A stretch of 64,000 nt of DNA from an uncultured Erysipelotrichaceae bacterium (GCA_902764145.1 CACWUS010000004.1:1-64000); one strand, 5' to 3'. Numbered from the stretch's first letter, positions 121 through 21,640 are shown. Translations and numbers: made by a program. The notes: generated by a model from the letters alone, not told the origin.

Positions 121-145
121 TTAAAAGCTAGTTATGAACTAGCTT
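121..145 (-). terminator. Weak intrinsic terminator at the end of the surface-protein operon
   Basis: A 9-bp perfect stem (125-133 with 137-145, loop ATG) overlaps the stop codon of the gene ending at 132. On the minus strand it is followed only by TTTTAAC, so the T tract is short. It is placed to end the operon running from about 8.5 kb. Confidence 0.45.
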
Positions 146-806
146 GTGTGATATAAATTTTTACTTTTAAACTAATACAGGCATCATCAGGATTTGTTTG
201 CTTAAAGTCATATGCTTTTGTACCCCAAAGAGTATCAGCTTCATCATCTCCAGATTCATATGGCCACGCTATACTTACTGTATAAGTTGCCACACCATTT
301 TCTGGTGCAATTGTATCACTAGACATAGTGAAACTTATTGTAAATGGAAATTCACTTTCCAACATTTCTTGAAGTTCAGCACTTGTTAGGTCTCCTTCTT
401 GTATTTCATCTCCTACATCAGTTCTTCCCTCTTCTGTAACATAAGTTTCTCCCATAATACTTGCTTCTAGTATAGCATAACTTACATTAGCAGATACATC
501 ACTATAATTGTGTGCATTGATTGGTTTTTCATATGTTGTCATACCTGGATATACATTGTTTACAACCACATCAACTACCTCAGTTACTGGTGTATTTCCA
601 TCATCAAAATCGATTCTCCATGCTCTAACATGAACATCAACACTATTACTTACATTATTAACATATATAAACCACGCATAACTATTTCCAGCAAGTAATA
701 TTATCAAAATAAGTATATGACTTATTTTGATTCTTTTTAATATTAAAGAAATTAAACTTTTTTTCTTTTTATTAGTCTCCTCTATCACCATCACCCTCTT
801 CTTCAT
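132..806 (-). CDS. TasA/camelysin-like secreted protein (SipW-type leader)
   Basis: This 224-aa protein has a Lys-rich N-terminus, a hydrophobic segment around residues 30-44 and the motif NSYAWF, the leader typical of substrates of SipW-type signal peptidases. The mature part is beta-rich with conserved-looking YPGM and NxSxVxxxVSYAI segments, like TasA/camelysin-family fibre or surface proteins. The gene directly follows a SipW-type peptidase and overlaps its 3' end by 35 nt, which fits enzyme and substrate in one operon. The start is uncertain: ATG at 806 has only a weak purine-rich site, and Met6 is an alternative. Assignment to the family rests on leader and context, not on a full domain match. 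Confidence 0.7.
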   Translation of the reverse strand: MKKRVMVIEETNKKKKSLISLILKRIKISHILILIILLAGNSYAWFIYVNNVSNSVDVHVRAWRIDFDDGNTPVTEVVDVVVNNVYPGMTTYEKPINAHNYSDVSANVSYAILEASIMGETYVTEEGRTDVGDEIQEGDLTSAELQEMLESEFPFTISFTMSSDTIAPENGVATYTVSIAWPYESGDDEADTLWGTKAYDFKQTNPDDACISLKVKIYITQASS

Positions 807-1356
807 CTTCTTCGGTGTGAAACATTGAAGACATTACTTCTATAGAAATAATCATTGCTACTAAAACAAAGATTATATAATATGATAATTGATTATTCAT
901 CATTTTTGCAAGTGCACTTAATAGTACAAATTTATATATAACTTTACCATATACTTGATCATAACTAATTTCAGGGTCTTCTACATAGTTAGCAAGACCT
1001 TTAGTTGTAAAGAATACTTCTCCTTCTCTTTCATCTTTGTTAACTACTTTGTGTGTTATTATTAATCCTCTAAGAGCGCCTTCTTCACCAAGGTAAGTAA
1101 TATTATCTCCAACATTTATTTCATTTGATGGAACACTCTTTGATACTAAAACATCTCCAATATCATATTCATCTTTCATAGATTCAGATACTATCATAAA
1201 TATTCTAAATCCACCTATAGATAAGTTATTATTTGTCACTTTTTGAACAATAATAATTATTAATAATAATACAACAACTATATATATAATCCACTTAATT
1301 AATCTAAATAATATATTATTCTCTATTTTCTCTTTTATTTTCTTTATTTTCTTCAT
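772..1356 (-). CDS. sipW: ER-type (SipW-like) signal peptidase I
   Basis: This 194-aa membrane peptidase removes leaders from exported proteins. It has an N-terminal transmembrane helix (about residues 19-38), the nucleophile motif SESM (Ser59) and, instead of the bacterial Lys, a His in ITHKV (His102), as in archaeal, ER and SipW enzymes. The usual GDAN segment is altered to GLAN but acidic residues follow. A second transmembrane segment and an acidic tail (EEDEEEGDGD) end the protein. The open frame extends upstream as far as a TTG at 1482, but ATG 1356 has AGGTGA just before it and starts 4 nt after the previous stop, so it is preferred. The next gene downstream encodes its likely substrate. 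Confidence 0.85.
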   Translation of the reverse strand: MKKIKKIKEKIENNILFRLIKWIIYIVVVLLLIIIIVQKVTNNNLSIGGFRIFMIVSESMKDEYDIGDVLVSKSVPSNEINVGDNITYLGEEGALRGLIITHKVVNKDEREGEVFFTTKGLANYVEDPEISYDQVYGKVIYKFVLLSALAKMMNNQLSYYIIFVLVAMIISIEVMSSMFHTEEDEEEGDGDRGD

Positions 1357-1360
1357 AATG

Positions 1361-2488
1361 TCACCTAAAACTAAATTCAGTAATTCTTTCTGTAAATGCT
1401 TGAAGTCTTTCATTGAACTTACGTTCAAGTTCAGCAAGAGAAGCTTCTTTCTTATTCTTAATAATTGCAATCTTATCTCCAATTACTTCACTTATTTTTT
1501 CAAGAGGTAAGTCTGCGTTTAATTCAACTATTTTATCTATCATTTTATTAGTTAAATCTTCAACTAATTCCGCTTTAGAATCTTCATCTAATTCAGAATA
1601 ATCTTGATTAACTGTATTTATTGCTAAATAATCAAGTAGGAATGTATCATCTAACATTTGCTTGATATTTAAATCTTCATCTAATGTTCTTTTATCTTTA
1701 ACCATTTTATTGTCATCAGCAATATAAGATTGTAAAAAATCCCATAATTTCATAGCATATTGAAAGTTAGTATTCTTAAGTATTAAATTTGTTTTTTTAA
1801 TTGGAGGTATTACTTTAGCAACATGTTCTTTAGCAAGAGATACATATACAGGTGTATTAGTTAAATCGGAAATTCTAAGTTTTAACTTTTCCATTCTTTG
1901 AGTAACACTCATACCATTTCTAACACCATCTTCTTTAGAAAAATCAACATTAGCAGTAATAACCATATTGATGTTAACTTTCTGAGCTCCTAATTTTGTA
2001 ACAGCTTGATATTCACATTTTTTATCATCTTTTAAGAAAGATGAACCAATATATTGCTTTTCTTTAATTTCGACAAAAGTTCTCATGTTATTTATTAGTG
2101 TATAAATAAATCTATTTTCATATGTATTGTAACTTTCATCTTTATTTATATTTAACACTTTTGATGGTTTAACATCACCATTATCATCTATTTCTTGTAT
2201 AAAACTAGTATGTTTAGCTAAATGTTTAATACTATCAACAGTAATTCTTTTAGCTTGTTCAACTTTAACTATTTCTTCTTCATTAATGATAAATCTATTA
2301 GGATTTCTTAGAATATTATCCAAATACATTATAGTATCTTCCATAATATCTAACCATGCAAAATCAGCTTCTACTTTTTGATAATTAGTAGTAAGTGTAT
2401 ATTTAGATTTTAATGATGAATTAAATTTAGTTATTTGTTTTTTACGAGTATTATTATATAATTCAAAAATCTTTAATTGATCTTGCAT
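1361..2488 (-). CDS. DUF2357/McrC-like partner of an AAA+ ATPase, nuclease domain not seen
   Basis: This soluble 375-aa protein contains the segment YNTYENRFIYTLI (about residues 120-132), which resembles the E..NR signature of DUF2357 proteins that accompany McrB-type ATPases. Unlike classic McrC or PDDEXK_7 proteins, no PD-(D/E)xK motif is visible; the C-terminal third is charged and helical. It lies 18 nt downstream of the McrB-like ATPase and 4 nt before the signal peptidase, with a clear AAGGGAG ribosome site. In restriction systems such a partner would cut or bind DNA; here the neighbours are export proteins, so the role is unknown. Family assignment is tentative. Confidence 0.5.
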   Translation of the reverse strand: MQDQLKIFELYNNTRKKQITKFNSSLKSKYTLTTNYQKVEADFAWLDIMEDTIMYLDNILRNPNRFIINEEEIVKVEQAKRITVDSIKHLAKHTSFIQEIDDNGDVKPSKVLNINKDESYNTYENRFIYTLINNMRTFVEIKEKQYIGSSFLKDDKKCEYQAVTKLGAQKVNINMVITANVDFSKEDGVRNGMSVTQRMEKLKLRISDLTNTPVYVSLAKEHVAKVIPPIKKTNLILKNTNFQYAMKLWDFLQSYIADDNKMVKDKRTLDEDLNIKQMLDDTFLLDYLAINTVNQDYSELDEDSKAELVEDLTNKMIDKIVELNADLPLEKISEVIGDKIAIIKNKKEASLAELERKFNERLQAFTERITEFSFR

Positions 2489-2506
2489 ACTAGCTCCCTT
2501 TCTATA

Positions 2507-4045
2507 CTATGATATCTTCTTCAATCTAAGTACGTATTCAATACATTCTTTCATTTTATTTTCCCCAAATGTTCTATTTAGGAAATCTACAAATCCATCT
2601 ATTTCATCTCTAATAAATGAAATATTTAATTGTTCAAATTTACGAAGTATTTTCTTTGCAATAAAGTAATCTACTCCATCTACTTCATCTCCACCACATG
2701 CCATATAAACTGGAACAAATTTCTTCATGTGAGCAACAATTCTGTTACCAAAAGCAATTCTAAAATGTTGAATTACATAATCATCCATTTCTTCAATTTT
2801 AGCTAAAATATCTTCACTCATTTGAATATTAGTTATTGCATCTTGGAATAATCCATTTACATATGAATAATTAATATCTTGTGCTTGAACAGATGTTGGT
2901 TCAAATACTTGTCCTTTATCATTTATATCTATTGGCATAGCACGGTCGTAAACTTTATCTGTAACCATAAATGTTGAGTCATCGTTATTGATTGTACCAA
3001 TGTACCAACAGTTTGGAGGTATTTTTAATTTACCATTTTTTAAATGTTTTGGGTCACTTGGCCAACCAGATGAAACTACTTCAACAACCCATTCATCTTG
3101 GTTAGGCATTTCTAGAATAGATAACATCTCTGCAAAATAATATTCGACACGAGATATATTCATTTCATCTAGGATTATTGTATGAATATCATCAGTATAT
3201 CCTGCTTCATATAATTCTTTTAAAATATCTGTTTCATTAAATTTCTTAGTAAATTCGTTGAAGTATCCAAATAGCTCTGATCTATCACGCCAAGATGGTT
3301 GAACAGATGCTACACAAGAGTCATGCTTCAAAAATTTTCCCCAAGCATAAGCAAGTGATGTTTTACCAGTACCAGAGATACCTTGTAATATTACAAGCTT
3401 TGTACTTGCTAATGCTGATATAAATAATCTAATCATTTCTGTTTTATAATATAGTCTTAATTGACTAGCAGCAAAGTTTCTAAACATTTCAACTAAATCA
3501 GAAAGAGTAAAATTATTACCATAATCTAATTTCTTATAATCTGCATATTGTAAATCTACATCATGTAATTTAGCAAATCTAATTGCGGTATTAGTATCAA
3601 GTTCTTCTTCTGGACTACCATCTGCATTGGTAACACCCTCTACAACAGCAGATTCATCTGGTCTAAGACCAAGTTGAGACACTTTCATGGCAAGAATATC
3701 TTCTTTTTCCTTTAATAAAGTTGCAACTCTACCATTTAAATCAGAAATTTCTTCAAGCATAGATTCTTGTTCAACTATTGTTTTTCTAAATCTAATATAT
3801 TTTCTAACTATGAATAACACTAAGAATACTATTAATGCTATAAATGCTAACATAAGTAAAACAGATATACCAAATAGTACCCATTCACTACCATTAAAGT
3901 CACCCTTATATGATTTTGCTAATGCTATATAAGCTTTAAAATTAAATATTTGTTTAAATCCTTCAACAAATCCTTTAAAAATACTTATAAAGCCAGAAAA
4001 GAATTGACTTAAAACTTCATAAAAATACTTTAAGAACGTATTCAT
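2507..4045 (-). CDS. Membrane-anchored McrB-like AAA+ ATPase
   Basis: This 512-aa protein has amphipathic N-terminal helices, one strong transmembrane segment (about residues 55-80), a coiled-coil linker, and an AAA+ domain of the McrB/MoxR type. The domain shows Walker A GISGTGKT (222-229), Walker B IILDEMN (290-296), an NNDDST sensor segment (353-358) and an Arg in VYDRAM (368). McrB proteins normally act in DNA restriction and are soluble; a membrane tether and a neighbourhood of signal peptidases suggest a different task, perhaps remodelling surface proteins or an assembly. ATG 4045 follows GAGGTG and is preferred to GTG 4057, which overlaps that site. Confidence 0.75.
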   Translation of the reverse strand: MNTFLKYFYEVLSQFFSGFISIFKGFVEGFKQIFNFKAYIALAKSYKGDFNGSEWVLFGISVLLMLAFIALIVFLVLFIVRKYIRFRKTIVEQESMLEEISDLNGRVATLLKEKEDILAMKVSQLGLRPDESAVVEGVTNADGSPEEELDTNTAIRFAKLHDVDLQYADYKKLDYGNNFTLSDLVEMFRNFAASQLRLYYKTEMIRLFISALASTKLVILQGISGTGKTSLAYAWGKFLKHDSCVASVQPSWRDRSELFGYFNEFTKKFNETDILKELYEAGYTDDIHTIILDEMNISRVEYYFAEMLSILEMPNQDEWVVEVVSSGWPSDPKHLKNGKLKIPPNCWYIGTINNDDSTFMVTDKVYDRAMPIDINDKGQVFEPTSVQAQDINYSYVNGLFQDAITNIQMSEDILAKIEEMDDYVIQHFRIAFGNRIVAHMKKFVPVYMACGGDEVDGVDYFIAKKILRKFEQLNISFIRDEIDGFVDFLNRTFGENKMKECIEYVLRLKKIS

Positions 4046-4053
4046 AGTACACC

Positions 4054-5031
4054 TCACTCTACTAAAATATTAGTATTAACATCTTCCTTACTATTAATAA
4101 TAGTATCATAATATTTATATTTCTTATTTACAATTATATATGTGAATAAGAACAAATCATCAAAATTAATATCATATGTTTTATCTAATTCTAAACAAAC
4201 ACTATAATCTTGATTAATTAAATTTTTAATTTCATCCTTATGTTCTTTATAATCTTTATACATAAATTTAATACATATTTTACTTCTTAACATATCATCA
4301 TCTAGTGCCTTTAAAAATCTTACAATTTTTTTAGGTTTATCTAGTAATGATACTGGAAAATCTACAATATATGTTTTGCTAAAATCAAGCGATATAACTT
4401 CAGATAATATTTTAGAAGAACACATTAATATTGTAAGATAAGTTCTATTTTCAAATACAACATCAGAATTATAAGCTCTTTCAACAGCATAATCACTATA
4501 TAGTTTAGAAACATTACAATTTTGTCCTAAATCAATATGATAAATGTTATTTGTATATTTTCTTCCTTTTAAATAAAACTCTTCTGCAGCAAATAGTTTA
4601 AAGAATGATACTTTTTTATTAATATATTCTCTTATATTATTATTTAATTCTTTTTTAGTAGCATCAGAATATTCTAAAGTAATATTTTTATCAGAAAATA
4701 ATGTTTTTAATAATAAATTTAAATCAGAATAATGAGTACATCCATCAATAAATAATACATAACTAAATAATGCAAATGTATTTTTAATTTTATCTTCTTT
4801 TTCTTCATTTTCACTTAATAATTCCTTAGCAATATTATTAAGTTCTTTATTAAGTCTATTAGTAAAATTCTCTTCTTTAACAACATACTCATTATAATAT
4901 CTAACATCAATATACTTATCTATAAATGGTTTTACAATTCCTTTTTCATATTTGGTAGATAATAGTAATTTAAAATAATTTGTTAAAAAATTTTCTACAT
5001 ATTTAACATATTCACTAAATACACAATCCAT
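4054..5031 (-). CDS. Unrecognised 325-aa soluble protein
   Basis: I do not recognise this protein. It has no leader or transmembrane segment, is rich in Lys, Glu, Asn and Tyr, and looks mixed alpha/beta with a helical N-terminal half. Its TGA stop overlaps the ribosome site of the McrB-like gene that follows (TGAGGTG), so the two are probably coupled in translation. Start ATG 5031 is chosen because AGGAGG sits 6 nt upstream; the longer frame from 5052 would overlap the previous gene. Its conserved place beside the ATPase suggests a cofactor or adaptor, which is inference. Confidence 0.6.
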   Translation of the reverse strand: MDCVFSEYVKYVENFLTNYFKLLLSTKYEKGIVKPFIDKYIDVRYYNEYVVKEENFTNRLNKELNNIAKELLSENEEKEDKIKNTFALFSYVLFIDGCTHYSDLNLLLKTLFSDKNITLEYSDATKKELNNNIREYINKKVSFFKLFAAEEFYLKGRKYTNNIYHIDLGQNCNVSKLYSDYAVERAYNSDVVFENRTYLTILMCSSKILSEVISLDFSKTYIVDFPVSLLDKPKKIVRFLKALDDDMLRSKICIKFMYKDYKEHKDEIKNLINQDYSVCLELDKTYDINFDDLFLFTYIIVNKKYKYYDTIINSKEDVNTNILVE

Positions 5032-5041
5032 ATCTTTCCTC

Positions 5042-5971
5042 CTATGAAGCACTAAACGTAACTATAGATGTATTATTTGTTATTGGATAAGTATAATTAT
5101 TAGAAATATTTCTCTTATAAAATCTTATCTCTTCACTTGTTAAAACATCTACATTAAACGTAATAGAACTAATATATGCAACCCCATTATAAGTTGTAGT
5201 TTGATAAGTAGCGCGCTTCAAAATATCACTTGTTGTATCCATTATTACTTCTGATGGATTAAATGAAAGTGTTATTATTGCTGAAGCACATTTAGCTTTG
5301 TTTTCGCTACTTAATTGTAAATATTCTTCAGTTGTTAACGTATCATTAACTGCATATGATGTACTTACACCATTAACTGTTGCAGTAAAAGGACTTGTTA
5401 CTTTATATGTATCTAAAGCATTAGTTATAGAAAAAATAAAATATGGAGATCCAACACTATCAGTAATAGCATAATCAATACCTCTTCTACCAACAGTAAT
5501 TACAAATGTGGCACTTAAAGTTTTAACATATGGACTACTAGATATAGCTTGCACAGTTACACTAAATGACTCATTATCATTAAAAACCCTAAGTGGTACA
5601 ATTGTTAATGATAAACTATCTGTTTTTTCTGCTTTATATATTACCCCACTATTGGAATCCAAATTACATCTAATACTTGTAGGATCAGATGGTGTTGCTG
5701 TTACAGTGTATGTAATATCAGAAGCACTAGTTAACAAATTGTTTTTGTGATTGTTTAATTCAAATTGTATGTCAATGTTACTTGCACCACCCCAGTTATT
5801 AATACCATAAGTAGTACCTCCATCAACTAATTTGTCGCTATTAAAGAAGAAATTATTTGCTTCCATAATATAATTTCTAACATTTTTGATTACATATCTA
5901 CTAAATGTTACACCAAATGGCAATAATAGTAATATGGCAGCTATAATTATGATTAGCTTTCTTCTCTTCAT
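5042..5971 (-). CDS. Secreted or membrane-anchored beta-rich protein
   Basis: This 309-aa protein has an N-terminal leader (MKRRK plus hydrophobic residues 5-23) followed by TFSRYV, close to the SARY or TFARYV pattern seen after the leader of other surface proteins here. The rest is Ser, Thr, Asn and Val rich and predicted all-beta, including an ITYTVTATPSDPT segment typical of immunoglobulin-like exported domains. No anchor signal is visible at the C-terminus. It has its own promoter just upstream (5993-6021) and a good GGAG ribosome site. It is a likely SipW-type substrate, but its family is not recognised. Confidence 0.6.
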   Translation of the reverse strand: MKRRKLIIIIAAILLLLPFGVTFSRYVIKNVRNYIMEANNFFFNSDKLVDGGTTYGINNWGGASNIDIQFELNNHKNNLLTSASDITYTVTATPSDPTSIRCNLDSNSGVIYKAEKTDSLSLTIVPLRVFNDNESFSVTVQAISSSPYVKTLSATFVITVGRRGIDYAITDSVGSPYFIFSITNALDTYKVTSPFTATVNGVSTSYAVNDTLTTEEYLQLSSENKAKCASAIITLSFNPSEVIMDTTSDILKRATYQTTTYNGVAYISSITFNVDVLTSEEIRFYKRNISNNYTYPITNNTSIVTFSAS

Positions 5972-5992: not shown

Positions 5993-6021
5993 ATTATAGC
6001 ATAATAAAAAAGATTATGCAA
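5993..6021 (-). promoter_or_regulatory. Sigma-A-type promoter for the 5971-132 genes
   Basis: On the minus strand TTGCAT (6021-6016) and TATAAT (5998-5993) are spaced 17 bp, and TGC before the -10 makes it an extended -10. The -35 overlaps the end of the preceding gene, giving an internal start in the operon. Confidence 0.6.
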
Positions 6022-6616
6022 CTTGATGTGCATCAATTATTACAGAGAATAACTCAACTCCTCCTTGATACAAATCAGGATAATCTTTATAACTTTCTGG
6101 AAAAATTACTTTTAACATATACTCATCAATTTGATTCCTATTATGACTAAAACTATAAGTATCATCATTACTAAATACGTTATAGAAAACATCATATTCA
6201 TCTTGCCTTACACTAGTGTTTTCAATAATATTTGTGTAACCAGAAGCAAATGTTTCATTTCTTACTATTTCATATGTTAATGGTAAATTTGTTGTAGTTT
6301 CAAATTTTATTTGATATTCAAGATCTACATTTGCTCTATGATTATCATCATCATAATTTTTAACATAAAATGTGTAATATGTTGGAACAAGACTAGGAGT
6401 TAGTCCACTAAGTGAGATTGTATTTTCATAAGTTCCTTGTTCAACTACAAAAAATGCAACATTTGCTTCTGCACTAACATTACCAGAGGATTCATATCTA
6501 GCACTAGTATTATTAGCAATGTTTGTAATTATTACTAAAGCAACAAAGATGAATGTTATTTTCATAACACTCATTAATCTCTTTTTATCAAAAGTTTTAA
6601 ATAAACTTTTTTTCAT
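6014..6616 (-). CDS. TasA/camelysin-like exported protein
   Basis: This 200-aa protein has a basic N-terminus, a hydrophobic leader (about residues 15-36) and the cleavage-region motif NTSARYESSG, followed by SAEANVAFFVV, a start typical of TasA-like fibre subunits. The mature part is beta-rich and ends in FSVIIDAHQVA, matching the terminal strand of that family. It starts one base after the stop of a SipW-type peptidase with GGGGAG as ribosome site, so ATG 6616 is used rather than ATG 6628. It is the probable dedicated substrate of that peptidase. Confidence 0.7.
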   Translation of the reverse strand: MKKSLFKTFDKKRLMSVMKITFIFVALVIITNIANNTSARYESSGNVSAEANVAFFVVEQGTYENTISLSGLTPSLVPTYYTFYVKNYDDDNHRANVDLEYQIKFETTTNLPLTYEIVRNETFASGYTNIIENTSVRQDEYDVFYNVFSNDDTYSFSHNRNQIDEYMLKVIFPESYKDYPDLYQGGVELFSVIIDAHQVA

Positions 6617-6617
6617 C

Positions 6618-7355
6618 TTACTCCCCATTCATTTTATTATCAATTTGTTTTTGTAATTCAGACAAATCTAATCTTATTGTGTAATTTAAGAAGTCTTTTT
6701 CTTTCTTATCAAATTTTACTTCTTCCCCATTTTTAACTGCATCTGTTTTCTTATATAATTCAACTATTTCTAAATCAGTTAACTTTTGTTCTTCTGCTGT
6801 CTCATTAACTTGTTTTAAAGATACACCTTCTATTTTGTCAACTAATTTTGCATTTTGCTTATTTCTAATACCTTTATATGAAAATGCAAAATCAAATAGA
6901 ATTAATGTAATAAATATCATTATTATTATTTTAGGTGTAGTAAATACTTTTTGCCATACACCTAAATTAGAATATATTTTTACTACTTTTCCAACAATAT
7001 CATTTTGAGTAATGGCAACATCCTTAGCATTATTAGCATCACCCTTTGTTACAATAGAATCACCTATTATATTAATAATTCTATGAGTTACATATGCATT
7101 ATCGCTTTTAAAAGTAATAATATCATCTGTTTTATATTTATCTTGTTTCTTTACAAGTATAACATCGTTCTGTTTTATTACAGGTTCCATGCTACCAGTG
7201 GCTACACTAAAAATAGAATATCCAAATACTTCAAAATATTCTTCATCGCTGAACAAAGTTTTAACCCTAACAAATATTATAACAAGAAGTATTAAGAATA
7301 CTAATGTTGTCAAAATATCAACAAATACTTTTAAAAACTTTTTAAGCCCTTTCAC
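6618..7355 (-). CDS. sipW: ER-type (SipW-like) signal peptidase I with cytosolic tail
   Basis: This 245-aa enzyme has all expected features: an N-terminal membrane helix (12-30), the nucleophile motif ATGSMEP (Ser55), His91 in YVTHRI in place of the bacterial Lys, and KGDANNAKD (Asp106, Asp112). A second helix (about 143-158) is followed by an unusual charged tail of some 85 residues facing the cytosol if topology is standard. It starts at GTG 7355 after AAAGGATGG; no other Met is available nearby. It lies between two TasA-like genes and is likely to process both. Confidence 0.9.
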   Translation of the reverse strand: MKGLKKFLKVFVDILTTLVFLILLVIIFVRVKTLFSDEEYFEVFGYSIFSVATGSMEPVIKQNDVILVKKQDKYKTDDIITFKSDNAYVTHRIINIIGDSIVTKGDANNAKDVAITQNDIVGKVVKIYSNLGVWQKVFTTPKIIIMIFITLILFDFAFSYKGIRNKQNAKLVDKIEGVSLKQVNETAEEQKLTDLEIVELYKKTDAVKNGEEVKFDKKEKDFLNYTIRLDLSELQKQIDNKMNGE

Positions 7356-7374: not shown

Positions 7375-7995
7375 CTATTCCCCTACATATGGTACCAATG
7401 TTTCACCTAAATATTGTTCTGCATGAACACTAATTGGTACTATTAATTTACTTCCATATTGAGTTCCAAGTTCAGTATCATCTTCATCATAACTAGCTAT
7501 ATCATTCCATGTAACATGAACCCTTATTGTAACCAATGTATCAGATTCTATTGAACTTAAACTAATAACACCAGAATATGTATCTTCAGCTGTTAAAACT
7601 GTATCATTACTACCTAACTCTTCAACAGAAATTGAAATATTATCAGAATAACTCATTGAAGAAAAATTAAATGTAATGTCATACCTTACAGCGACATCGC
7701 ATTCAGTTGCATCAAATACCAAATCAAAATAGGCACTTCCTCCAGGAGCTATATATCCACTTTCTACAGTAGATGATGCATCATATACAAAACTATCTAT
7801 TACTATATCCTGTGTTTCTTCATTACTAATTACATTATTGTTAATTTTAATAATCCATTTACCTATATCGTTATCAACTTCACCACTAGCATTATTTTCA
7901 AATAAAGCCAATGTTTTTGAAAATATTGTATATGTTATTAATAGTGAAATTAAGACAATCAACCAAAGAATAATTCTAAATCTATTATTCTTCAT
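7375..7995 (-). CDS. TasA/camelysin-like exported protein
   Basis: This 206-aa protein has an N-terminal hydrophobic leader (about residues 5-30) with KTLALFENNASGEV just after it, the pattern of SipW-dependent surface proteins. The rest is beta-rich and includes IAPGGSAYFDLVF and VTIRVHVTWND, typical strands of TasA-like proteins. ATG 7995 is taken as start because the longer frame begins at a TTG with no ribosome site. It overlaps the inactive peptidase gene by 11 nt, with the active peptidase next in line. Confidence 0.65.
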   Translation of the reverse strand: MKNNRFRIILWLIVLISLLITYTIFSKTLALFENNASGEVDNDIGKWIIKINNNVISNEETQDIVIDSFVYDASSTVESGYIAPGGSAYFDLVFDATECDVAVRYDITFNFSSMSYSDNISISVEELGSNDTVLTAEDTYSGVISLSSIESDTLVTIRVHVTWNDIASYDEDDTELGTQYGSKLIVPISVHAEQYLGETLVPYVGE

Positions 7996-8518
7996 TTTTC
8001 TCTCTTCTAGCCTCTTCAATTATAGAATATATCTCATATACAATAGCAAATATTGTTGGGAATATTACTAAGAACATAAATCCCCATCTGCTTTCAAATA
8101 TAGATAAAACTAATCCCCAATGATGATATACAATACTTCCATTAGCATGACCTATCATTTTTGAATATGGAATAACTACATTTTCTCCAAAGTAATATGA
8201 ATCTTCTGCATATGCAGCTTCATTCTTATCAGTTATTTCGCCATAATTAATAAATACATAATCAGATGGATTAGATATATAAAAGAATACCTTATCTCCA
8301 ACATTATATTTATTTTCAGCTACTTTTTTAGTTATAACCAAATCATTTTCCTTAAAATCTGGTTCAAGCCTATCACTATCAACAATTATTATTGAATAGT
8401 TACCTATTTCACTAACACTATAGTCATTGTATGAAATTAAGCATATTGTAGCTATTATTGCTGCTAAAACCCATACAGAAATAAGTATATTTTTTAGAAA
8501 ATTAAATATTTTTTTCAT
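7985..8518 (-). CDS. Signal peptidase I paralogue lacking catalytic residues
   Basis: This 177-aa membrane protein keeps the layout of the SipW-like enzymes: N-terminal helix (12-30), a DSDRLEPDFKENDLVI segment that aligns with SGSMEP...GDxV, and a C-terminal transmembrane helix (about 145-168). The Ser before Met is replaced by Arg50, and the region that should carry the catalytic His reads YVFINYG. It therefore cannot use the Ser/His mechanism. It may be a chaperone-like or substrate-binding subunit for the active enzyme encoded just downstream. Start ATG 8518 follows GTGAGG; the GTG at 8530 is part of that site. Confidence 0.7.
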   Translation of the reverse strand: MKKIFNFLKNILISVWVLAAIIATICLISYNDYSVSEIGNYSIIIVDSDRLEPDFKENDLVITKKVAENKYNVGDKVFFYISNPSDYVFINYGEITDKNEAAYAEDSYYFGENVVIPYSKMIGHANGSIVYHHWGLVLSIFESRWGFMFLVIFPTIFAIVYEIYSIIEEARREKNEE

Positions 8519-8545
8519 GTAAAACCTCACTCTACTATTAATTCA

Positions 8546-13100: not shown

Positions 13101-16100
13101 GTGAATTGTTAACAAGTTCAGAACCTGTTATAGCAGCATTTCCTCCACCAAATACAGAACATTGACTAAGTACTGAACATTGTGGTGTTCCAACTACTGA
13201 AGTACCACCTACTATTATACTTGTATTTCCTGTTACAGTAGCATGAGAACCGTTTCCTCCAGCATATGCACTACCCGAAATACTAGTATCATTTATTATA
13301 ACATCAGTACTTCCTCCAACTGTTCCTTCATTTCCTCCTCCATAGATAGAAGAAGAAATTGTTGAGTCATCTATTGTTATACTTGAATTTCCTGTTACAT
13401 TTGCAAGTTGACCATTACCAGCAGCAAATGTACTTCCTGCAATTGTTGTTCCACTAATATTTACTGTTGTGTTTCCTCCAACTGTTCCTTCATTTCCTCC
13501 ACCATAAACAGCAGAAGAAATTGTTGAATCAGTAATAGTTAAATTTGAATTTCCAGCTACATGCGCTGTTTGACCATTACCAGCACCAAATGTGCTTCCT
13601 GCAATTGTTGTTCCATCAATAGTAACTGTTGTGTTTCCACTTACTGTACCTTGGTTTCCTCCACCATAAACATTATCTGTTACGTTTGAATTAGCTACTG
13701 AAAGGATTACACTAGCAGTTACATTAGCAGCATTTCCTCCACCATATATTGTTCCAACAGTTGCATCTTGAACATCTACATTTGTATTTCCTACATGAGC
13801 TTGATTTCCACCACCATATATTGTTCCAACATTTCCACCTAAGACATTAACATCTGTAGAACTTGTAGTACCTCCGGCATTATTAGCTCCATATAGATTT
13901 GTAACAGTTCCTTTGTTCATTGTAATTGTTGAATTTGTTATATTTCCTAATTGGTTAGATCCTCCATATACATTAGTAATATTAATAGTTCCATTTGTAG
14001 AATCGCCTAATGTAATATTTGTATTAGAAGCTCCTGCTTTGTTTCCTCCACCATATAACGCTGGTAAAGTGCCACCCATGTTTGTAATTAATACATTTGT
14101 ATTTCCTGTTACAGCTCCTTCATTTCCTCCACCATATAGTGCTGTAGTAACACTTCCGCCACTTACAGATATATTTGTATTACCACTCATTGCTGCCTGG
14201 TTTCCTCCACCAAACATTGTAGTAACACTTCCGCCTGTTTGTGTTACATGTGAAGTTCCTGATATTGCTTTATTTCCTCCACCAAATAATGTTGTTACTG
14301 TTCCATTATTTAATGTTATGTTTGTTGTAGTTGTTGTTCCTCCATCATTATTACCGCCATATAGGCTTGTAACAGTTCCTTTATTCATAGTAATAGTTGA
14401 AGAATCAACATTTCCTAATTGGTTAGATCCACCATATACATTAGTAATATTAATTGTTCCATTTGTAGAATCGCCTAATGTTATATTTGTATCTGAAGCT
14501 CCTGCTTTATTTCCTCCACCATATACTGCTGGTAAAGTGCCACTCATATTTGTAATTAATACATTTGTGTCTCCCGTTACAGCTCCTTCATTTCCACCAC
14601 CATATAGTGCAGTCGTAATACTTCCACCACTTACAGATATATTTGTATCTCCACTCATGTCTGCTTTGTTTCCTCCACCAAACATTGTGGTTACGCTTCC
14701 GCCTGTTTGTGTTATATGTGAAGTTCCAGATACAGCATCATTTCCTCCACCAAATAGCGTTGTTACTGTTCCATTATTTAATGTTATATTTGTTGTAGTT
14801 GTTGTTCCACCATCGTTATTACCACCATAAAGATTTGTAACACTACCTTTATTCATTGTAATTGTTGAAGAATCAACATCTCCCAATTGGTTAGATCCAC
14901 CATATACGTTTGTTATATTTATATTATTTGGTGAAGAAGCATTGCTTAAAGTAATATTTGTACTAGTTGCTCCTGCTTTGTTTCCTCCGCCATATACAGC
15001 ACTTAATGTATTATTAATATTTTTAATATTAACATTTGTAGTTCCTGTATCAACAAGATTACCTCCACCATAGACAATACCATTTATTGTTCCACCATTT
15101 AAGTTAACATTAGATTCAGTACAAGTTCCACCTTCATTGTTTCCACCAAATACAGTTCCAACTGTACCACCATCTATATAAACATGACTTTCATCTACTA
15201 CACCTCTTTGATTAGAACCACCATATAAAGTAGATACACTTCCACCTTCTAAATATATACTTGTGTTTCCAACAGAAGTTTTGTTTCCTCCACCATATGC
15301 ATTTGTTATATTACCACCATTTATAGTAACTACTACATCTCCAAGTGGTTCACCAGCTTCATCACATCCACCAAATACATTTGGTATTGTTCCATTATTG
15401 ATTGTAACATTAACATCACCATTAACATTTGGAGTAAATGTAGTGCTTCCCTTAGCACCTCCAAATACTGAACCTAGTATTGTACCATTATTTACAGTTA
15501 CATCAACAGAATATGAATTTGCAGTAGAAGATACTTCTCCTTCATTGACAGTTCCATAAGCACTTCCACCATACACAGTTCCATTAATATTAGGACCACC
15601 ACTACTATTGCCTATTGTTACATTAACATTTTTTGTAACATAAGTACCAGGATCATCATCACTTTGATATCCACCTTCTCCACCGCCATATACATCCGTA
15701 TATACAGTTCCAGCAGTTATCGTAACATTAGTATTTCCATTAACCACGCCTTTGGCACATGAACCACCATATACTGAACCGCTAACACTTCCACCATCCA
15801 TTGTTATGTTAATATTAGCAGTATTACTATTATTTGCATTTGTTGTAATTGTTCCGGCACCGGCATTGTTTCCTCCACCATATACTGAACCTTTAATTTC
15901 ACCATCATGAATAATAATATTTAAATTATATGTCTTTCCTGTACCATTTTGTCCAGCAGCACCATAATTTCCACCACCATAAACATTTTTATTAATAGTA
16001 GCAGATCCATCTATAATTATATTTGAATTATTAACAGTTCCTATTGTTTTAGAAGATGTATTTCCATTTCCATTACCAAATACACTTCCCGCTTCAACTA

Positions 16101-19100
16101 AACTTTCTGGTTCAATAGCATTACTTCCAAGACTAGTATCTCCAATCGTAGCATTTCCACCAATATAAACATAAGAGTCTCCATCAAGTTTACCATTGGT
16201 ATTATCACTACCATCAGAACCAGTAACACCATTTGATCCACCAAACACTGAATAATTAACAATACCATCAGTTACTTGGATAATTCTATTACCATAAGTT
16301 TGACTTTGTCCTGCACCACCTACTAGTATATCTGCGCTTCCACCTTTCATGTAGATATATACAGTATTAATTGATTTGTTAGTTGATTTTGGAGATGGAC
16401 CACCATTGACATTGTAAATATGTCCACCTTCAATTGTTACAGAACTTGCAGTATATATATTTGCATAACCTCTACCAGAAACATACATACCAGTTGCAAA
16501 ATTATACTTGCTAGTTCCAAATGTACCACTTTTAATAATTGTTTGAAGAGCAACATCATAGTTGTGTGTACTATAGTTTGATCCAGACCACATAGCTGAT
16601 ATTGTAAATGATACTTTTAAATTATCATTGTCTTTCTCGACTCTATCATAATCACAACCATAAGTAGTTATTTCATTTACATATATTGTTTTAGATGAGT
16701 TTACTGAAAGAGTTGTACTACTAGCAGTATTTAACATACCAGATTCAATTATTAATCTATATTTTGTAATATTTGAAGAACTACCTTGTGTACTAGTACT
16801 ATTGTTTCCACCAGCTATATTTGAAAACGTAGTTCTTGATGTATTATATTGAGTAATACCACGTCCAACTTTAACATTATTATAGTTTCCATATAATTGA
16901 CTATATGTACTACCAGATGGAGAAGCACCAGTATTATTAATAGTTGCTCCATAAACTTTCATATCTTCAATTCTTATATCACTATATGCTTGAACAATTG
17001 AGTTTTGAATTGACCAATAATACCTATTATAGTTATTAGTCCCATTATCTATTGTAGTTAGTGTAAATGGTCTTGTAACAGTATCTCTCCAAACATTTGT
17101 AATATTAGCACTCATTCTTACTATTGTTGTATCCCTTGTTGTTAAATAATAATACTCTTCCATACCAGCAACTTCCATGTCACCATTAGCATCATAGAAT
17201 TGTATCAAATCATAATAAGTGTCATAACTAGAAGCACTTCCACTAGTATACATGTTTCCAGTTGTATCATAATAACCAGCAAGATTAGTTCCATTTGGAA
17301 GATTTACTCTTCTATAAAATCCTGCAGTACTATCACCAATAGATAATTCACCTTCTAGTTCTTGATGTGAAGATACAGTAGTTTGTGTCATTGTACCATT
17401 TGATAATTCATAATAAGTCGTACCAGAGACATAATTACCTGAAGCAGGAACATAACATGTACAACCACCATAAGTATTACAATATCCATTAAGTTCTACC
17501 CCATTAGCATTTACTGCTCCATCAGGATAATCATAATATCTATAAACAGTACGTCTAGTATATAATCCATTAATACTATCATAAACAGTTTCAACACTTG
17601 TAACAGCAGTAAAACCATATGCTCTTAAGTTATTATTTGATAAGTTTCTTAAACTTGTAGTAGTTAAATGAAGACCATCTGTCCAACTTGAATAAATGTT
17701 AGCAGTTATGTTATTTGGAACATCTCCGTTGTAAGTAACAGGTATTTTTATAAATCTTGTGTAAATATCTTTATTTAAATATATTTCTGCTCCTACATAA
17801 TCAGTAACCCAACCATTAAATGCTTTTCCATCAGGTCTATTTTGGAATGGATTATCTATTAACTCTATTTCAACATAATCATCACTTTTATTACTAGCAG
17901 TTCCATTATTGTTAACTTCATATATTTTATAATATATAAATTGATTTTCATCTTCACCAGATGTGTTTGATATAGCACCAACATTATTATTATCATAATC
18001 TCTACCATAATAATGTAATTGCGTATATACTAAATTTGAATCATTATAAATGTTTTTTCTTTCAGTTGTTGGTAAAGCACCATTATTAGAATGAGTATAA
18101 TTCAATCCTTCATAATAATTAGCATCACTTTCATAATCATTAACATAAACAATTGAGCCTTCTCTTCCACTATCATGAGCGCTTGGTGCTGATCTAACGG
18201 CCTTTTTAAGAGCAATTTTCTTACCAGGAAGTGTATCATCAACACCTTTGTTTTGTATTCTAAATGCATTTTTTTCAAACACCCAATTAAAATCAGACTT
18301 ACTATTTAATATTTGTAATATTGCTTTAACAGGAATATTATCATTAAATGTTAATTTACCATTATTAATAGAATATTCATAAGCAGAATCATCAGATACT
18401 TTGTGATTAAATACCAAATCTAAATGATTACTCATATAAATAATATTTTCTAATTTTGCATTATTATAATTTCTAATTAAAACTGAAGTATCATTAGCAC
18501 TACTAGTACCATTAATATTAATATTACTAAAAGTATTTCCATCTATATCATTTAAAATAAATAAAGATGAACTTATATTTTCTTCCTTTCCAGTAAATAA
18601 AACATTTATTTTATTTAAATTTAAATTCTTAATAACACTTTGTTCTACATTTTTAGCAAGAAATGAAACTTCTATTCTTTCTACCTTATTTTCAATAACT
18701 TCATCTTCTATATTTTCTTCTTCATTAGCTATATCATTAGTAGTTTCACCTTCTACATTCTCACTATTTGTATCATCAGTATTTTCACCAGCATTTTCAC
18801 CAGTAGTGTTATCACTACTATCACTATTTTCATCTGGATTTGTAGAATTTTCATTTGAATTTTTATCTTCATCAGTTGTTTTTTCGCCATCAATCACTTC
18901 ATCTGTTGCACTACTATTATCAGTATTATTATCATCTTTTTTAGTATCATCATTAGAAGTAGGATTTTCATTTGTAACTGAATTATCCTCTGTATTTTTA
19001 TTTTCTTCTTTACTAATTTCACTATCATTTGTTGTTTCTAATGTTTCTATATTTTCATTTTCGTCATCAGAAACAGTTGATTTTGCCAAATTCTTATTTA

Positions 19101-19620
19101 GAACATCAGATTCTTTAACAATGATATCAACATCATGAATATTAACATTTTGAATTTTAGCACTATATAATGAATCAAACAATGAAATAGAAGCAATCTT
19201 TCCTTCTTCATCTAAATAATACTTAGAAAGTTTAAAATTAAAGATTGAATAACCTTTACCATCAAAATTACCGCTAAATGTTTTAACATCTGCGAATGAA
19301 AAATCATAACCATTTAAATCTATATTATTATTTAATTCATAAAATTTATTAAAGTATTCACTAGAATCTTCAGAATTAATAACAGTGAAAAAATAAGCAA
19401 GTTCAGAACCATTCTTTATAATATATGGATCACTAGCACTACCAGTTCCTTTATTAAATCTTTTAGCAACAGTTCCATCCCATATAATTGAAGTAGTTTT
19501 TTCACTGAAAGTATTATATAAAACAAAAAAGTTAACAGCAAAAAATAAAAGTACTGCTAATACTAGAAATTTCTTAGTTTTAATGTATGATTTAAGTTTG
19601 TCAATTACATTCTGAAACAT
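10198..19620 (-). CDS. Giant 3140-aa surface protein with beta-solenoid repeats
   Basis: The protein has an uncleaved-looking membrane anchor (about residues 17-36), a GLUG-like beta region (45-165), an acidic Asn/Asp/Glu/Ser/Thr low-complexity spacer (about 175-310), and a further region with GYCNTYGGCTC cysteines. About residues 1000-2200 are repeats of some 20-25 residues centred on VYGGGN, each with alternating strands (NTNVTI...GGSV) as in beta-helix adhesins. The last 800 residues are non-repeat beta domains. There is no LPXTG or C-terminal membrane helix, so it is probably held by its N-terminus. It has its own promoter and a terminator upstream. A stalk-like adhesin or surface-layer role is likely; the neighbouring peptidases and ATPase may serve it. 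Confidence 0.8.
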   Translation of the reverse strand: MFQNVIDKLKSYIKTKKFLVLAVLLFFAVNFFVLYNTFSEKTTSIIWDGTVAKRFNKGTGSASDPYIIKNGSELAYFFTVINSEDSSEYFNKFYELNNNIDLNGYDFSFADVKTFSGNFDGKGYSIFNFKLSKYYLDEEGKIASISLFDSLYSAKIQNVNIHDVDIIVKESDVLNKNLAKSTVSDDENENIETLETTNDSEISKEENKNTEDNSVTNENPTSNDDTKKDDNNTDNSSATDEVIDGEKTTDEDKNSNENSTNPDENSDSSDNTTGENAGENTDDTNSENVEGETTNDIANEEENIEDEVIENKVERIEVSFLAKNVEQSVIKNLNLNKINVLFTGKEENISSSLFILNDIDGNTFSNININGTSSANDTSVLIRNYNNAKLENIIYMSNHLDLVFNHKVSDDSAYEYSINNGKLTFNDNIPVKAILQILNSKSDFNWVFEKNAFRIQNKGVDDTLPGKKIALKKAVRSAPSAHDSGREGSIVYVNDYESDANYYEGLNYTHSNNGALPTTERKNIYNDSNLVYTQLHYYGRDYDNNNVGAISNTSGEDENQFIYYKIYEVNNNGTASNKSDDYVEIELIDNPFQNRPDGKAFNGWVTDYVGAEIYLNKDIYTRFIKIPVTYNGDVPNNITANIYSSWTDGLHLTTTSLRNLSNNNLRAYGFTAVTSVETVYDSINGLYTRRTVYRYYDYPDGAVNANGVELNGYCNTYGGCTCYVPASGNYVSGTTYYELSNGTMTQTTVSSHQELEGELSIGDSTAGFYRRVNLPNGTNLAGYYDTTGNMYTSGSASSYDTYYDLIQFYDANGDMEVAGMEEYYYLTTRDTTIVRMSANITNVWRDTVTRPFTLTTIDNGTNNYNRYYWSIQNSIVQAYSDIRIEDMKVYGATINNTGASPSGSTYSQLYGNYNNVKVGRGITQYNTSRTTFSNIAGGNNSTSTQGSSSNITKYRLIIESGMLNTASSTTLSVNSSKTIYVNEITTYGCDYDRVEKDNDNLKVSFTISAMWSGSNYSTHNYDVALQTIIKSGTFGTSKYNFATGMYVSGRGYANIYTASSVTIEGGHIYNVNGGPSPKSTNKSINTVYIYMKGGSADILVGGAGQSQTYGNRIIQVTDGIVNYSVFGGSNGVTGSDGSDNTNGKLDGDSYVYIGGNATIGDTSLGSNAIEPESLVEAGSVFGNGNGNTSSKTIGTVNNSNIIIDGSATINKNVYGGGNYGAAGQNGTGKTYNLNIIIHDGEIKGSVYGGGNNAGAGTITTNANNSNTANINITMDGGSVSGSVYGGSCAKGVVNGNTNVTITAGTVYTDVYGGGEGGYQSDDDPGTYVTKNVNVTIGNSSGGPNINGTVYGGSAYGTVNEGEVSSTANSYSVDVTVNNGTILGSVFGGAKGSTTFTPNVNGDVNVTINNGTIPNVFGGCDEAGEPLGDVVVTINGGNITNAYGGGNKTSVGNTSIYLEGGSVSTLYGGSNQRGVVDESHVYIDGGTVGTVFGGNNEGGTCTESNVNLNGGTINGIVYGGGNLVDTGTTNVNIKNINNTLSAVYGGGNKAGATSTNITLSNASSPNNINITNVYGGSNQLGDVDSSTITMNKGSVTNLYGGNNDGGTTTTTNITLNNGTVTTLFGGGNDAVSGTSHITQTGGSVTTMFGGGNKADMSGDTNISVSGGSITTALYGGGNEGAVTGDTNVLITNMSGTLPAVYGGGNKAGASDTNITLGDSTNGTINITNVYGGSNQLGNVDSSTITMNKGTVTSLYGGNNDGGTTTTTNITLNNGTVTTLFGGGNKAISGTSHVTQTGGSVTTMFGGGNQAAMSGNTNISVSGGSVTTALYGGGNEGAVTGNTNVLITNMGGTLPALYGGGNKAGASNTNITLGDSTNGTINITNVYGGSNQLGNITNSTITMNKGTVTNLYGANNAGGTTSSTDVNVLGGNVGTIYGGGNQAHVGNTNVDVQDATVGTIYGGGNAANVTASVILSVANSNVTDNVYGGGNQGTVSGNTTVTIDGTTIAGSTFGAGNGQTAHVAGNSNLTITDSTISSAVYGGGNEGTVGGNTTVNISGTTIAGSTFAAGNGQLANVTGNSSITIDDSTISSSIYGGGNEGTVGGSTDVIINDTSISGSAYAGGNGSHATVTGNTSIIVGGTSVVGTPQCSVLSQCSVFGGGNAAITGSELVNNSLASVKITGATVYGNVYGGANTSKVYGRSDVNIGADVQLSGIITRGNVSIKGTVFGGGEANASGSDEYDWTFVSVTKGIDVNINGNNYPTFEILGSIFGSGNASTTTGLSEVVIKNYGTFSNPQRNVSIQRTDYLKLDNSAIVLEGATDRENEYSDVLFTLSRIKRLDLTNNSTLFLETGANLLEEFNSLTSTGAKAAVNIDEENKTVTKNVDNRVYMFIDKKLNIAKDQNVTDYGEVNGMSFFGMYKYNSNGDINVGIYNDYAYDETLNWGDVFDNVSSYVLGLHEANHDIKVDGFYTNYIQEDTGKNKIDYIEPTPPSGPLYMWTIGEGVIEYEIDLSASKYSTLGTAELSLIDFTHPNTTFEILGFDYSELDSSVRLVPKTNIKKIADTDQEADTIMGLTMETSNIGWLVNGNTTFLTHVANPEDAVVGTESYVGGNNASSPTLLFNLHHSKNISSTGDLGRVRIQLTSIRQIDALTKETKRLIITVNLSKALISTVNYEGAMTAGRKYELFASTATNISSSSSISVYYSLFNSGESIYRNGYHRALFSNYVFPLNTKITMIDYSGNNPEYYYHVINQNDVDAATAQMQSDNEASYNISMFETMGAENSGVYYNDAAKNIAYYNSTANYCNEEFIFIIDFGDTNINANSLANQLLFGIRDSDEETIYGVLGNQYSVLTYNIYANKDAIIDMDGTISSNKIYNGESVIADLTIDYTQEMVGSTVIYDTHYFDSKLGIKISLINSDGEVVTGTTLLGLYYTIDGVRYDPNIDGTTRIKIADKVDSAEKWVIINTGTSTIASGNYTLRFESFGSPDGIYYGLTSSDTKDFAIEIVNEIYGLDVNTSAEEMIIDSLTGNNANGTNTIVYNLNYNSGLANPNIRFKMYRRSYEHIDDTNYILVDAQDYFDNAFQPTSNEKEYKIITSPGEHNSYTFTLNEELITGTYKMEFILYDEDASIGSVEKYIIIK
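13953..14900 (-). repeat. 468-bp tandem super-repeats inside the giant gene
   Basis: The marker GGTTAGATCC-like segment recurs at 13953, 14421 and 14889, a spacing of exactly 468 bp (156 codons). Between markers the two full copies encode nearly the same order of seven solenoid rungs (QLG, DGG, GGGN, GGGNKA or QAA, GNEGAV, GNKAGA). The flanks hold diverged partial copies. Copy number could change by homologous recombination without breaking the frame. Confidence 0.8.
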
Positions 19621-19650
19621 CTATACTTCCTACTTTCCCATCATATGAAA

Positions 19651-19679: not shown

Positions 19680-19703
19680 CAATTTTACGTACAAAAATGG
19701 CAT

Positions 19704-19728: not shown

Positions 19729-19739
19729 AATTAATAATT

Positions 19740-20861
19740 TTATTCATTATCAAGTTTAAATCCAAGTTTGAATGTTAAGAAAGCACCTGAAGCACTGTTT
19801 TCACAGTCAACATCTTGTCCTTCAACCCACATATAAACTCTGAATTTTGTTACACCTGGTGATAAAGTAAACATTTTGTGTAAATTAGTATCTAAATTTG
19901 CACTAGTTGTTTCACCAGTATATGATTTTTTGCTAGTAGTTCCTTCTGAATAAGCTTTATTAGTTCTAATTAAATTTGTTGGAACTTTAAAGTAATCACC
20001 AGATGGACTACCACCAGCGTTTGTATTTACTAAAACAATTGGAGAAGATATAGCAGCTTGTACACCATAATAAGGTAATGCTGGTGTATCAGCAGTTGCA
20101 GCTACAGTTGTTTGACTATAAGAGTTTTGTGCAGCAAGTACACCTGTTGCTGTATGCATATCAAAGTTTGGTTCAACAATTATTGAAGAAGTACCACCAG
20201 TCCAAGATCTTGCAGTAGCAGCTGGAGTTGATGCATTTCCATTTCCTTCTTGAACGAATGCATATCTTGCAGCATTTTGAAGTCCTTTGTCATCTTGATT
20301 TTCTGTAGATAATACACCTGAACCATTTGTTAAATAAACATCTGCATTAACAGTATCATCATTTCTTAAGAAAATATCAAAAGCTATGAAATTAGGAGCT
20401 TCTTCTCCTTCAGCTAGCGTAGGATAAGTTCTTGTAGTACCATTTAATGTATAAACATATGATTTTTCTGCAGGGGTAGCAACAGCTGTTAATGACATTG
20501 CATTTCCATTAGATGCAGCAGCTTCAACAGTTCCTTTAAAGAAATCCATATATCCACCAGTAACATTACCAGCAGTTGAAACTGGTACTAAATTATAAGG
20601 TAACATATTTTTATGTGTTGTCCATCCTCCTGGACTTGTAATATCTTCATTTGAGATAATTGTTTTCCAATCAGCAGCATCTGTAGATATTAACAAACCA
20701 CTACTAGCCGCAATGTAAACATCAATTGGATCAATTGAAACGCTTCTGTTAGCAGTGAACCATGCATATGTTGATGTTGTTAACAATACAATTGTTAAGA
20801 ACAATAACAAAATCAAGGATTTTAATCTTTTCTTTCTTTCTTTTCTTTCTTTTTTTGTCAT
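19740..20861 (-). CDS. SipW-dependent-type surface protein (TYAWF leader)
   Basis: This 373-aa protein starts with a strongly basic segment, a hydrophobic leader (about residues 14-28) and STYAWFTANRS, the classic signature of SipW-processed TasA/camelysin proteins. The mature part is Ala, Thr, Ser and Asn rich and beta-strand-like, ending with VYMWVEGQDVDCENSASG, a motif shared with the upstream gene. ATG 20861 is used; the GTG at 20870 lies in the ribosome site GGAGTGAGG. It starts 5 nt after the stop of its neighbour and ends before a terminator, so the pair forms one unit. Confidence 0.75.
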   Translation of the reverse strand: MTKKERKERKKRLKSLILLLFLTIVLLTTSTYAWFTANRSVSIDPIDVYIAASSGLLISTDAADWKTIISNEDITSPGGWTTHKNMLPYNLVPVSTAGNVTGGYMDFFKGTVEAAASNGNAMSLTAVATPAEKSYVYTLNGTTRTYPTLAEGEEAPNFIAFDIFLRNDDTVNADVYLTNGSGVLSTENQDDKGLQNAARYAFVQEGNGNASTPAATARSWTGGTSSIIVEPNFDMHTATGVLAAQNSYSQTTVAATADTPALPYYGVQAAISSPIVLVNTNAGGSPSGDYFKVPTNLIRTNKAYSEGTTSKKSYTGETTSANLDTNLHKMFTLSPGVTKFRVYMWVEGQDVDCENSASGAFLTFKLGFKLDNE

Positions 20862-20866
20862 AAACC

Positions 20867-21640
20867 TCACTCCAATTCTTTAATTGTATCTTCTGTATGC
20901 TCTTCAATAAGTTTCATATGCAATCTTACATGTCCACCAATAAGAGCGTTAGTGCACTCAGGATCCTCGCCTTCAATCCAAACAACAACAGTTATTTTAT
21001 CTAAATCTCCAGCTTGCATATCCTTTCTTTGCCCTAAAATAATAGTCCCATCTTTATCGTTTCTAAATTTTGTTGTATACTCATCTTTTTCTAATATCTT
21101 CTTTTTGACTTTGTTATTAACATAGTATACAGGTTCAGCTTCACCATCAATACTATTTCCTTTTGCATAGACAGTTGCTTCATCATTAATAATTATCATT
21201 ATTCTAAGCGCCTCATCTGCATTTTTAACAACATCATCCATATAGACATTATACCAATAGTTAAGTACTGCATCTCCTTGATTTTCCATATAAAACGAGT
21301 ACGCAATATAATTTTTACCATTATGTGACCCTTCACCTTCAGTTATGTTTTCAGGCAACCAAGTTATTGTTATGTTATCCATAAACTGTAACTCTTCTGC
21401 CTTAAGTCTTCTCTTAGGTGTTGGATCATTTAACGTTTCATACATTGCAAGTCCGCTATATAGCATATCATTTCGATCAAGCGTGACTATAAAACTACCA
21501 TCATTAAAAAGTACTTTTAACACAATATAAATAATTATAAGCAGTAATAAAAGTATCAACAGCGCAAGTTTAATAAATTTACCAAGCTTATGCCAATTTC
21601 TTACTTTATTAGCTTTAACTACTACATCTTTTTTTGCCAT
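20867..21640 (-). CDS. Membrane-anchored surface protein related to its downstream neighbour
   Basis: This 257-aa protein has a basic start, one hydrophobic helix (about residues 22-45) and a beta-rich outer domain. Near its C-terminus it carries VVVWIEGEDPECTNALIGG, which matches WVEGxDxxC of the next gene, so both share a terminal domain of TasA-like type. The leader lacks the AWF motif, and cleavage is uncertain. A strong ribosome site (GGAGGAG) and promoter lie upstream, making this the first gene of the two-gene unit. Confidence 0.65.
   Translation of the reverse strand: MAKKDVVVKANKVRNWHKLGKFIKLALLILLLLLIIIYIVLKVLFNDGSFIVTLDRNDMLYSGLAMYETLNDPTPKRRLKAEELQFMDNITITWLPENITEGEGSHNGKNYIAYSFYMENQGDAVLNYWYNVYMDDVVKNADEALRIMIIINDEATVYAKGNSIDGEAEPVYYVNNKVKKKILEKDEYTTKFRNDKDGTIILGQRKDMQAGDLDKITVVVWIEGEDPECTNALIGGHVRLHMKLIEEHTEDTIKELE

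Follow-up and report, generated by a model that had tools for sequence, protein, structure and literature searches.

Several described systems resemble the locus reported here. The closest is CoCoPALM, a triad of membrane-tethered McrB GTPases with an NxD signature, McrC proteins and signal peptidase genes, which Bell et al. (2024, eLife; PMC11090510) named in one paragraph without giving it a function; the same paper presents the NxD signature as that of a branch with no characterised member. Among the 5.4 million open articles that we searched, nothing on CoCoPALM turned up besides that article and its preprint. The SipW-TasA-TapA system of Bacillus subtilis (TasA/CalY/CapP in B. cereus), like our locus, has a SipW peptidase of the endoplasmic reticulum (ER)-like type and SipW-leader beta-sandwich subunits and lacks a sortase, and the tapA-sipW-tasA operon contains no AAA+ ATPase, DUF2357 or EAL protein (PMC13082335, PMC9674648). 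The locus that we describe occupies positions 132 to 21640 of a 64,000-nucleotide window, meaning the whole stretch of DNA analysed, from the genome of an uncultured Erysipelotrichaceae bacterium (GCA_902764145.1, CACWUS010000004.1:1-64000). It is a variant of the named but functionally uncharacterised CoCoPALM triad, and probably a chromosomal locus through which the cell makes surface fibres and a giant surface protein without a sortase, helped by an McrBC NTPase that has no nuclease and has been repurposed.

All coordinates given are positions in the window, which is the start of contig C4; the genome measures 1.45 Mb at 27% GC, and the close relatives that have names are Bacilli of the gut, uncultured and in many cases from the rumen. 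Every gene listed in a preliminary description of this DNA was present in its place, on the minus strand and tightly packed with several overlaps of 4-35 nt: two active signal peptidases and one inactive one, six leader- or anchor-bearing proteins, the ATPase, its DUF2357 partner and a 3140-amino acid (aa) protein. That description knew of no system with this set, which was partly wrong because the triad had already been named CoCoPALM by Bell et al. What stands is that the exported cargo, the dead SipW, the EAL-fold partner and the distribution go beyond that paragraph. New relative to the paragraph are thus the likely substrates (SipW-leader TasA-related proteins and giant exported proteins), the conserved dead SipW, the EAL-fold partner and the spread in Bacilli; the paper's supplement may list some of these elements.

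The likeness to CoCoPALM, as that paragraph defines it, begins with the McrB-like AAA+ NTPase (2507..4057). In profile searches of the PDB its sole matches were to E. coli McrB (E 3e-4). The Walker A sequence GISGTGKT, DEMN and NNDD were invariant in 26 homologues; the last is the NxD motif (N357-N358-D359), which replaces NxxD as in CoCoPALM. Of 48 ATPases from farther afield, 38 also showed the NxD motif; the search pattern missed the other 10. All 80 family ATPases have a predicted N-terminal membrane helix followed by a coiled-coil-like segment (residues 95-130 in the window protein). CoCoPALM is described with an FtsB-like membrane helix and coiled coil; the match to FtsL/FtsB here was weak (E 0.06). 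Tethering proved almost universal among these ATPases and so does not predict which of them are linked to SipW.

The partner (1361..2488, 375 aa) is a DUF2357/McrC-N-like protein (Pfam PF09823, 4e-11) without a nuclease domain; searched by sequence against the PDB, it gave no McrC match. CoCoPALM McrC proteins are usually, not universally, fused to a coiled coil, whereas the DUF2357 protein lacks such an extension in all members of the window family (362-410 aa); in other families the partner is mostly 506-932 aa long, and the examples printed bear long coiled coils. The PD-(D/E)xK pattern was absent from the DUF2357 alignment, and no nuclease or HEPN domain was found in the McrC-like partner across ~110 homologues. 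The ATPase is thus an NxD-type, membrane-tethered McrB homologue with a nuclease-free McrC-like partner. Type IV restriction by McrBC likewise pairs an AAA+ NTPase with a DUF2357 activator, but it has a PD-(D/E)xK nuclease and an McrB N-terminal domain that binds modified DNA. The window pair has neither: its ATPase begins with a membrane segment, gave no DNA-binding Pfam domain, is tethered, and keeps different gene company. CoCoNuT, a Type IV-like system predicted to target RNA, shares the NxD motif and a coiled coil on the NTPase, but a Pfam scan found no HEPN or other nuclease domain in or beside the window operon, whose cargo consists of exported proteins. Since no nuclease is present, the pair would not be expected to cut nucleic acid.

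To follow the company of this pair, we used two samples: 80 loci of other genomes, retrieved with the ATPase as the only query and with 10-kb flanks (family loci), and 41 loci from other Bacilli families (distant loci), with 20 control stretches of 20 kb each, placed arbitrarily in the genomes that supplied the distant loci. Among the family loci, DUF2357 adjoined the ATPase in 80/80, and a SipW-family peptidase and the 332-aa protein (325 aa if started from the ATG at 5031, as in the preliminary description) were each present in 79/80. TasA-like leader-bearing proteins, paralogues counted, occurred in 76/80, a 309-aa protein in 75/80 (mean column identity 43%), and a 204-aa protein in 57/80, as did the 376/257 family. 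A homologue of the giant protein was present in 52/80 although the flanks extended just 10 kb, and a 501-aa protein, usually adjoining the giant gene, in 26/80. Gene order was strongly conserved, as SipX-T-SipW-204-309-332-ATPase-DUF2357-SipW-T, where T is a TasA-like gene and SipX the dead peptidase. The distant loci gave the same picture, with p-values that are somewhat generous because several loci share a genome and a few come from the window's own family: a SipW-family gene in 33/41 versus 1/20 controls (p = 1e-8), a large exported protein in 32/41 versus 4/20 (p = 2e-5), and at least two SipW-type leaders in 17/41 versus 0/20 (p = 5e-4). Counted in this way, over the whole stretch fetched, SipW-family genes were present in 78/80 family loci. 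The 332-aa gene was found in 15 of 60 relatives' genomes, 15/15 of which also carried the ATPase (p = 1.5e-11), and the pairwise distances of six of the families were correlated (r 0.67-0.87), shared ancestry contributing to this. An ATPase relative at 1e-30 was present in 135/395 genomes of more distant families in the same class, about one third of the Bacilli sampled.

The grouping of the ATPase pair with SipW/TasA-type genes is therefore not accidental. The preliminary description had allowed for the opposite, that in related genomes the pair travels with restriction genes and not with SipW/TasA genes, and a chance juxtaposition of a SipW/TasA locus with an unrelated McrBC remnant could point to the ATPase-free SipW/TasA-like pair elsewhere in this genome and to the ATPase loci that lack SipW. 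Linkage to SipW in 79/80 family and 33/41 distant loci, across many families, together with the conserved gene order, already refutes that explanation and leaves it a negligible probability. The ATPase-free pair is a separate short operon on another contig (G000:C12, locus L210, 1384-3235).

Descent from a restriction enzyme raises the question of defence. Pfam and PADLOC scans covered 129 genes near family loci and 81 near distant ones: the 25 commonest Pfam families listed included no recurrent family of restriction, methylase or HEPN proteins, and restriction and defence genes were not enriched in the sampled neighbours. The idea of a restriction island was rejected on the ground that no restriction family recurs near the sampled loci. 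One could still suppose that the pair is an envelope-coupled, Type IV-like anti-phage system for which the fibre genes provide a barrier or a sensor, and there is something to be said for this: the ATPase is homologous to McrB, the PADLOC defence candidate PDC-M26A is a related ATPase (5e-35), presence is patchy among relatives, and Bell et al. describe the family inside a census of restriction systems. Yet neither the operon nor the McrC-like partner in ~110 homologues contains a nuclease or HEPN domain, so that restriction could work only with a nuclease from elsewhere, and none recurs among the sampled neighbours. We regard such a defence function as improbable; the evidence suggests instead a defence-derived, nuclease-free motor, that is, a defence machine rebuilt for assembly at the cell surface. 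No relative was found on viral contigs. The window also carries, some 20 kb or farther away and outside the conserved locus, a Type I restriction-modification set (41008-46877) and a large ATPase-like protein (49095-51281).

The signal peptidases divide into active and inactive copies. The downstream copy (772..1356, 194 aa; TIGR02228, 72 bits) and the upstream copy (6618..7355, 245 aa; TIGR02228, 78 bits; NF046067 (SipW), 2.8e-20) both exceed the cut-off for signal peptidase I (TIGR02228) and keep the ER-type Ser/His pair, as in the SipW/TasA operons. The third (7985..8530, 181 aa; weak TIGR02228 match, 25 bits), which we call SipX, has Arg and Tyr at the Ser and His positions. The pair is kept in 78/78 orthologues of the downstream copy. 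Of paired upstream copies, the ATPase-proximal one keeps it in 35/36 loci and the distal one has generally lost it; an upstream copy that stands alone is also degenerate, and the great majority of first-position SipX orthologues have lost the pair. The paralogue is thus conserved as a dead enzyme, and its retention across the family argues for a role in binding.

The proteins that these peptidases would process carry leaders ending in YAWF, AKY or ARY motifs, resembling SipW substrates. The AlphaFold2 (AF2) model of the TasA-like 224-aa protein (132..806; leader end NSYAWF) has one N-terminal helix followed by a beta-sandwich, and in profile-profile comparison with the set of hits to PF12389 (TasA/camelysin) this protein matched with probability 96.7 over the leader and first strands only. 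The TasA-like 214-aa protein (7375..8019) matched the same set with probability 95.4 over its N-terminal half only. Elsewhere, in genome G104, three SipW genes and at least six proteins with YAWF or YAWL leaders surround the ATPase, and two of these leader proteins match PF12389, one of them over the cut-off; the ATPase locus of G025 has one match over the cut-off. The window's exported proteins thus likely work like TasA. Also leader-bearing are the core 309-aa protein (5042..5971) and the 204-aa protein (6014..6628; leader ...NTSARY). A search for TapA, part of the B. subtilis fibre operon, did not find it in the locus (TIGR04087, E 0.16).

The giant protein (10198..19620, 3140 aa) has an N-terminal membrane segment by hydropathy and ~34 GG-containing repeats of roughly 25 aa each, a spacing from which we judge it to be probably a beta-solenoid; no LPXTG-like motif was found in it. 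Its gene includes 468-bp tandem repeats, 81-86% alike, at 13863-15150, where length variation by recombination or assembly collapse could occur.

Between the exported proteins and the ATPase lies the 332-aa core protein (4054..5052), with a helical N-terminal half and a predicted degenerate EAL-like barrel. Its AF2 model had a predicted local distance difference test (pLDDT) score of 90.6, and in a Foldseek search each of the 33 best hits was an EAL or GGDEF-EAL entry (best E 8e-4; template modelling score, normalised to the target, ~0.5). Catalytic EAL, ExT and DDFG motifs were not seen in the family alignment. Independent indications of an EAL connection came from the distant loci. In a blind Pfam scan of the 81 genes near distant ATPases, EAL was the commonest domain (11/81) and GGDEF the next (6), and EAL domains occurred in 18/41 distant loci versus 0/20 controls (p = 2e-4). 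L163 and L167 lack SipW; in them, 6-16 nt separate the ATPase from a degenerate membrane EAL protein, next to which a giant membrane-anchored protein is encoded. L139 and L173 encode soluble degenerate EAL proteins. These observations suggest an EAL or cyclic di-GMP (c-di-GMP) input to the ATPase operons. At L146, L149, L150, L151, L161, L164-L166 and L171, distant operons that contain SipW and the ATPase start with an EAL or GGDEF-EAL gene plus a membrane EAL gene with an altered DDFG, a set that resembles a phosphodiesterase-receptor pair. Degenerate EAL regulators of the FimX/LapD type, which share the fold predicted for the 332-aa protein, control a surface appendage or adhesin, but the sequence relation of the 332-aa protein to EAL is not significant and no canonical EAL protein was found in its genome.

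Outside the window, the genome encodes a single protein with a GGDEF domain (G000:C4:69110-71143, L212). Its identification as GdpP, and with it the idea that c-di-GMP is absent, was rejected, its architecture being sensor-transmembrane-GGDEF. A protein of this kind occurs in almost every genome of the family, whether or not the ATPase is there. No canonical EAL gene was found in this genome or in the 12 family genomes tested. The protein is a possible source of c-di-GMP without a recognised phosphodiesterase, and c-di-GMP control in this genome is possible but unproven.

Several observations weigh against our reading of the locus. The 332-aa family and EAL are not joined by sequence profiles (hhalign probability <1%, not significant although in register), so that their homology is inferred at the level of fold. 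The Pfam model PF12389 did not match the window's own TasA-like proteins, a sequence search of the PDB gave no match to TasA, and the 224-aa model finds the TasA fibre at rank 6 (E 0.05); because the proteins join the PF12389 group at profile level, mainly over the leader and first strands, with a weak fold match, they are no more than candidate members of TasA proper. ATPase and DUF2357 occur without SipW at L140, L153, L154, L156, L163 and L167-L169, and SipW therefore cannot always be the partner of the ATPase. The locus is also missing in several relatives, which makes its function an accessory one. Most of the SipW-less loci adjoin large exported or membrane-anchored proteins. At L140, L153, L154, L156, L168 and L169, in other Bacilli, a tandem of ATPase-DUF2357-ATPase with membrane-tethered NxD ATPases is followed by at least one giant exported protein, without SipW; this second arrangement suggests that giant-protein export may be the common denominator of the NxD-ATPase branch.

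The remaining genes of the locus are a membrane-anchored exported protein with one N-terminal membrane helix (20867..21640, 257 aa), an exported protein with leader end STYAWF (19740..20870, 376 aa), a soluble helical protein (8583..10088, 501 aa) and a 33-aa open reading frame, predicted from sequence, that overlaps the 501-aa gene (10081..10182). Three transcription units are suggested, 257-376, giant-33-501 and sipX to 224, because overlaps of 4-35 nt run from sipX through to the 224-aa gene, a promoter-like site (TTGACT-17-TATAAT, 11/12 match) lies at 8574-8546 just upstream of sipX, and a hairpin with a T-run lies at 19728-19709, 3' of the 376-aa gene; both of these sites are consensus matches only. 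The 224-aa gene is the final one ahead of the contig edge at window position 1; just past the point that corresponds to this edge, relatives carry an extra TasA-like paralogue on the opposite strand, convergent with the 224-aa gene. Farther along the window, two genes (31261-32322 and 33718-35061) appear by eye to share a hydrophobic N-terminal region, fused to glucosaminidase-like and esterase-like secreted domains.

We know of no dedicated motor for TasA-like fibres. In the mechanism that we propose, SipW-leader preproteins would be exported by Sec and cut by the two peptidases, whose families are clear and whose activity is presumed. By analogy with TasA, the freed beta-sandwich subunits may then polymerise outside the cell by donor-strand exchange, with the giant repeat protein displayed alongside. 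SipX, binding leaders or precursors without cutting them, would hold or order subunits at the membrane. On the cytoplasmic side, the helix-tethered McrB-like ring, stimulated by DUF2357 as McrB is by McrC, would hydrolyse NTP (nucleoside triphosphate) and thereby remodel or release the precursor-peptidase complex; the exact step at which the motor acts is one that we infer. The EAL-fold protein could be an on/off input to the ring, perhaps descended from the EAL proteins that other Bacilli families encode in these operons. A tethered AAA+ ring on the cytoplasmic side, nearly always adjoined by a peptidase and exported proteins, could also suit a segregase that clears misfolded or uncut preproteins jammed at SipW, with no role in normal assembly. 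The operon encodes no protease partner, though, and the presence of a dead SipW and of an EAL-fold protein dedicated to the system points to a pathway under regulation, so we think quality control unlikely. A tentative extension of our assembly proposal is a machine widespread in Bacilli: an McrBC NTPase without a nuclease, gated by an EAL-fold protein that was originally a c-di-GMP receptor and working with a dead peptidase, would drive c-di-GMP-gated, sortase-independent, NTP-dependent biogenesis of TasA-type fibres and giant proteins. We rate this extension at less than an even chance.

If the locus works as we propose, a named but functionless branch of McrBC would become a testable surface-assembly machine, and a restriction NTPase would prove reusable for protein export. 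TasA-like fibres would have both a supply of energy and a control input of the EAL type, and not every McrB/McrC pair should then be counted as anti-phage defence.

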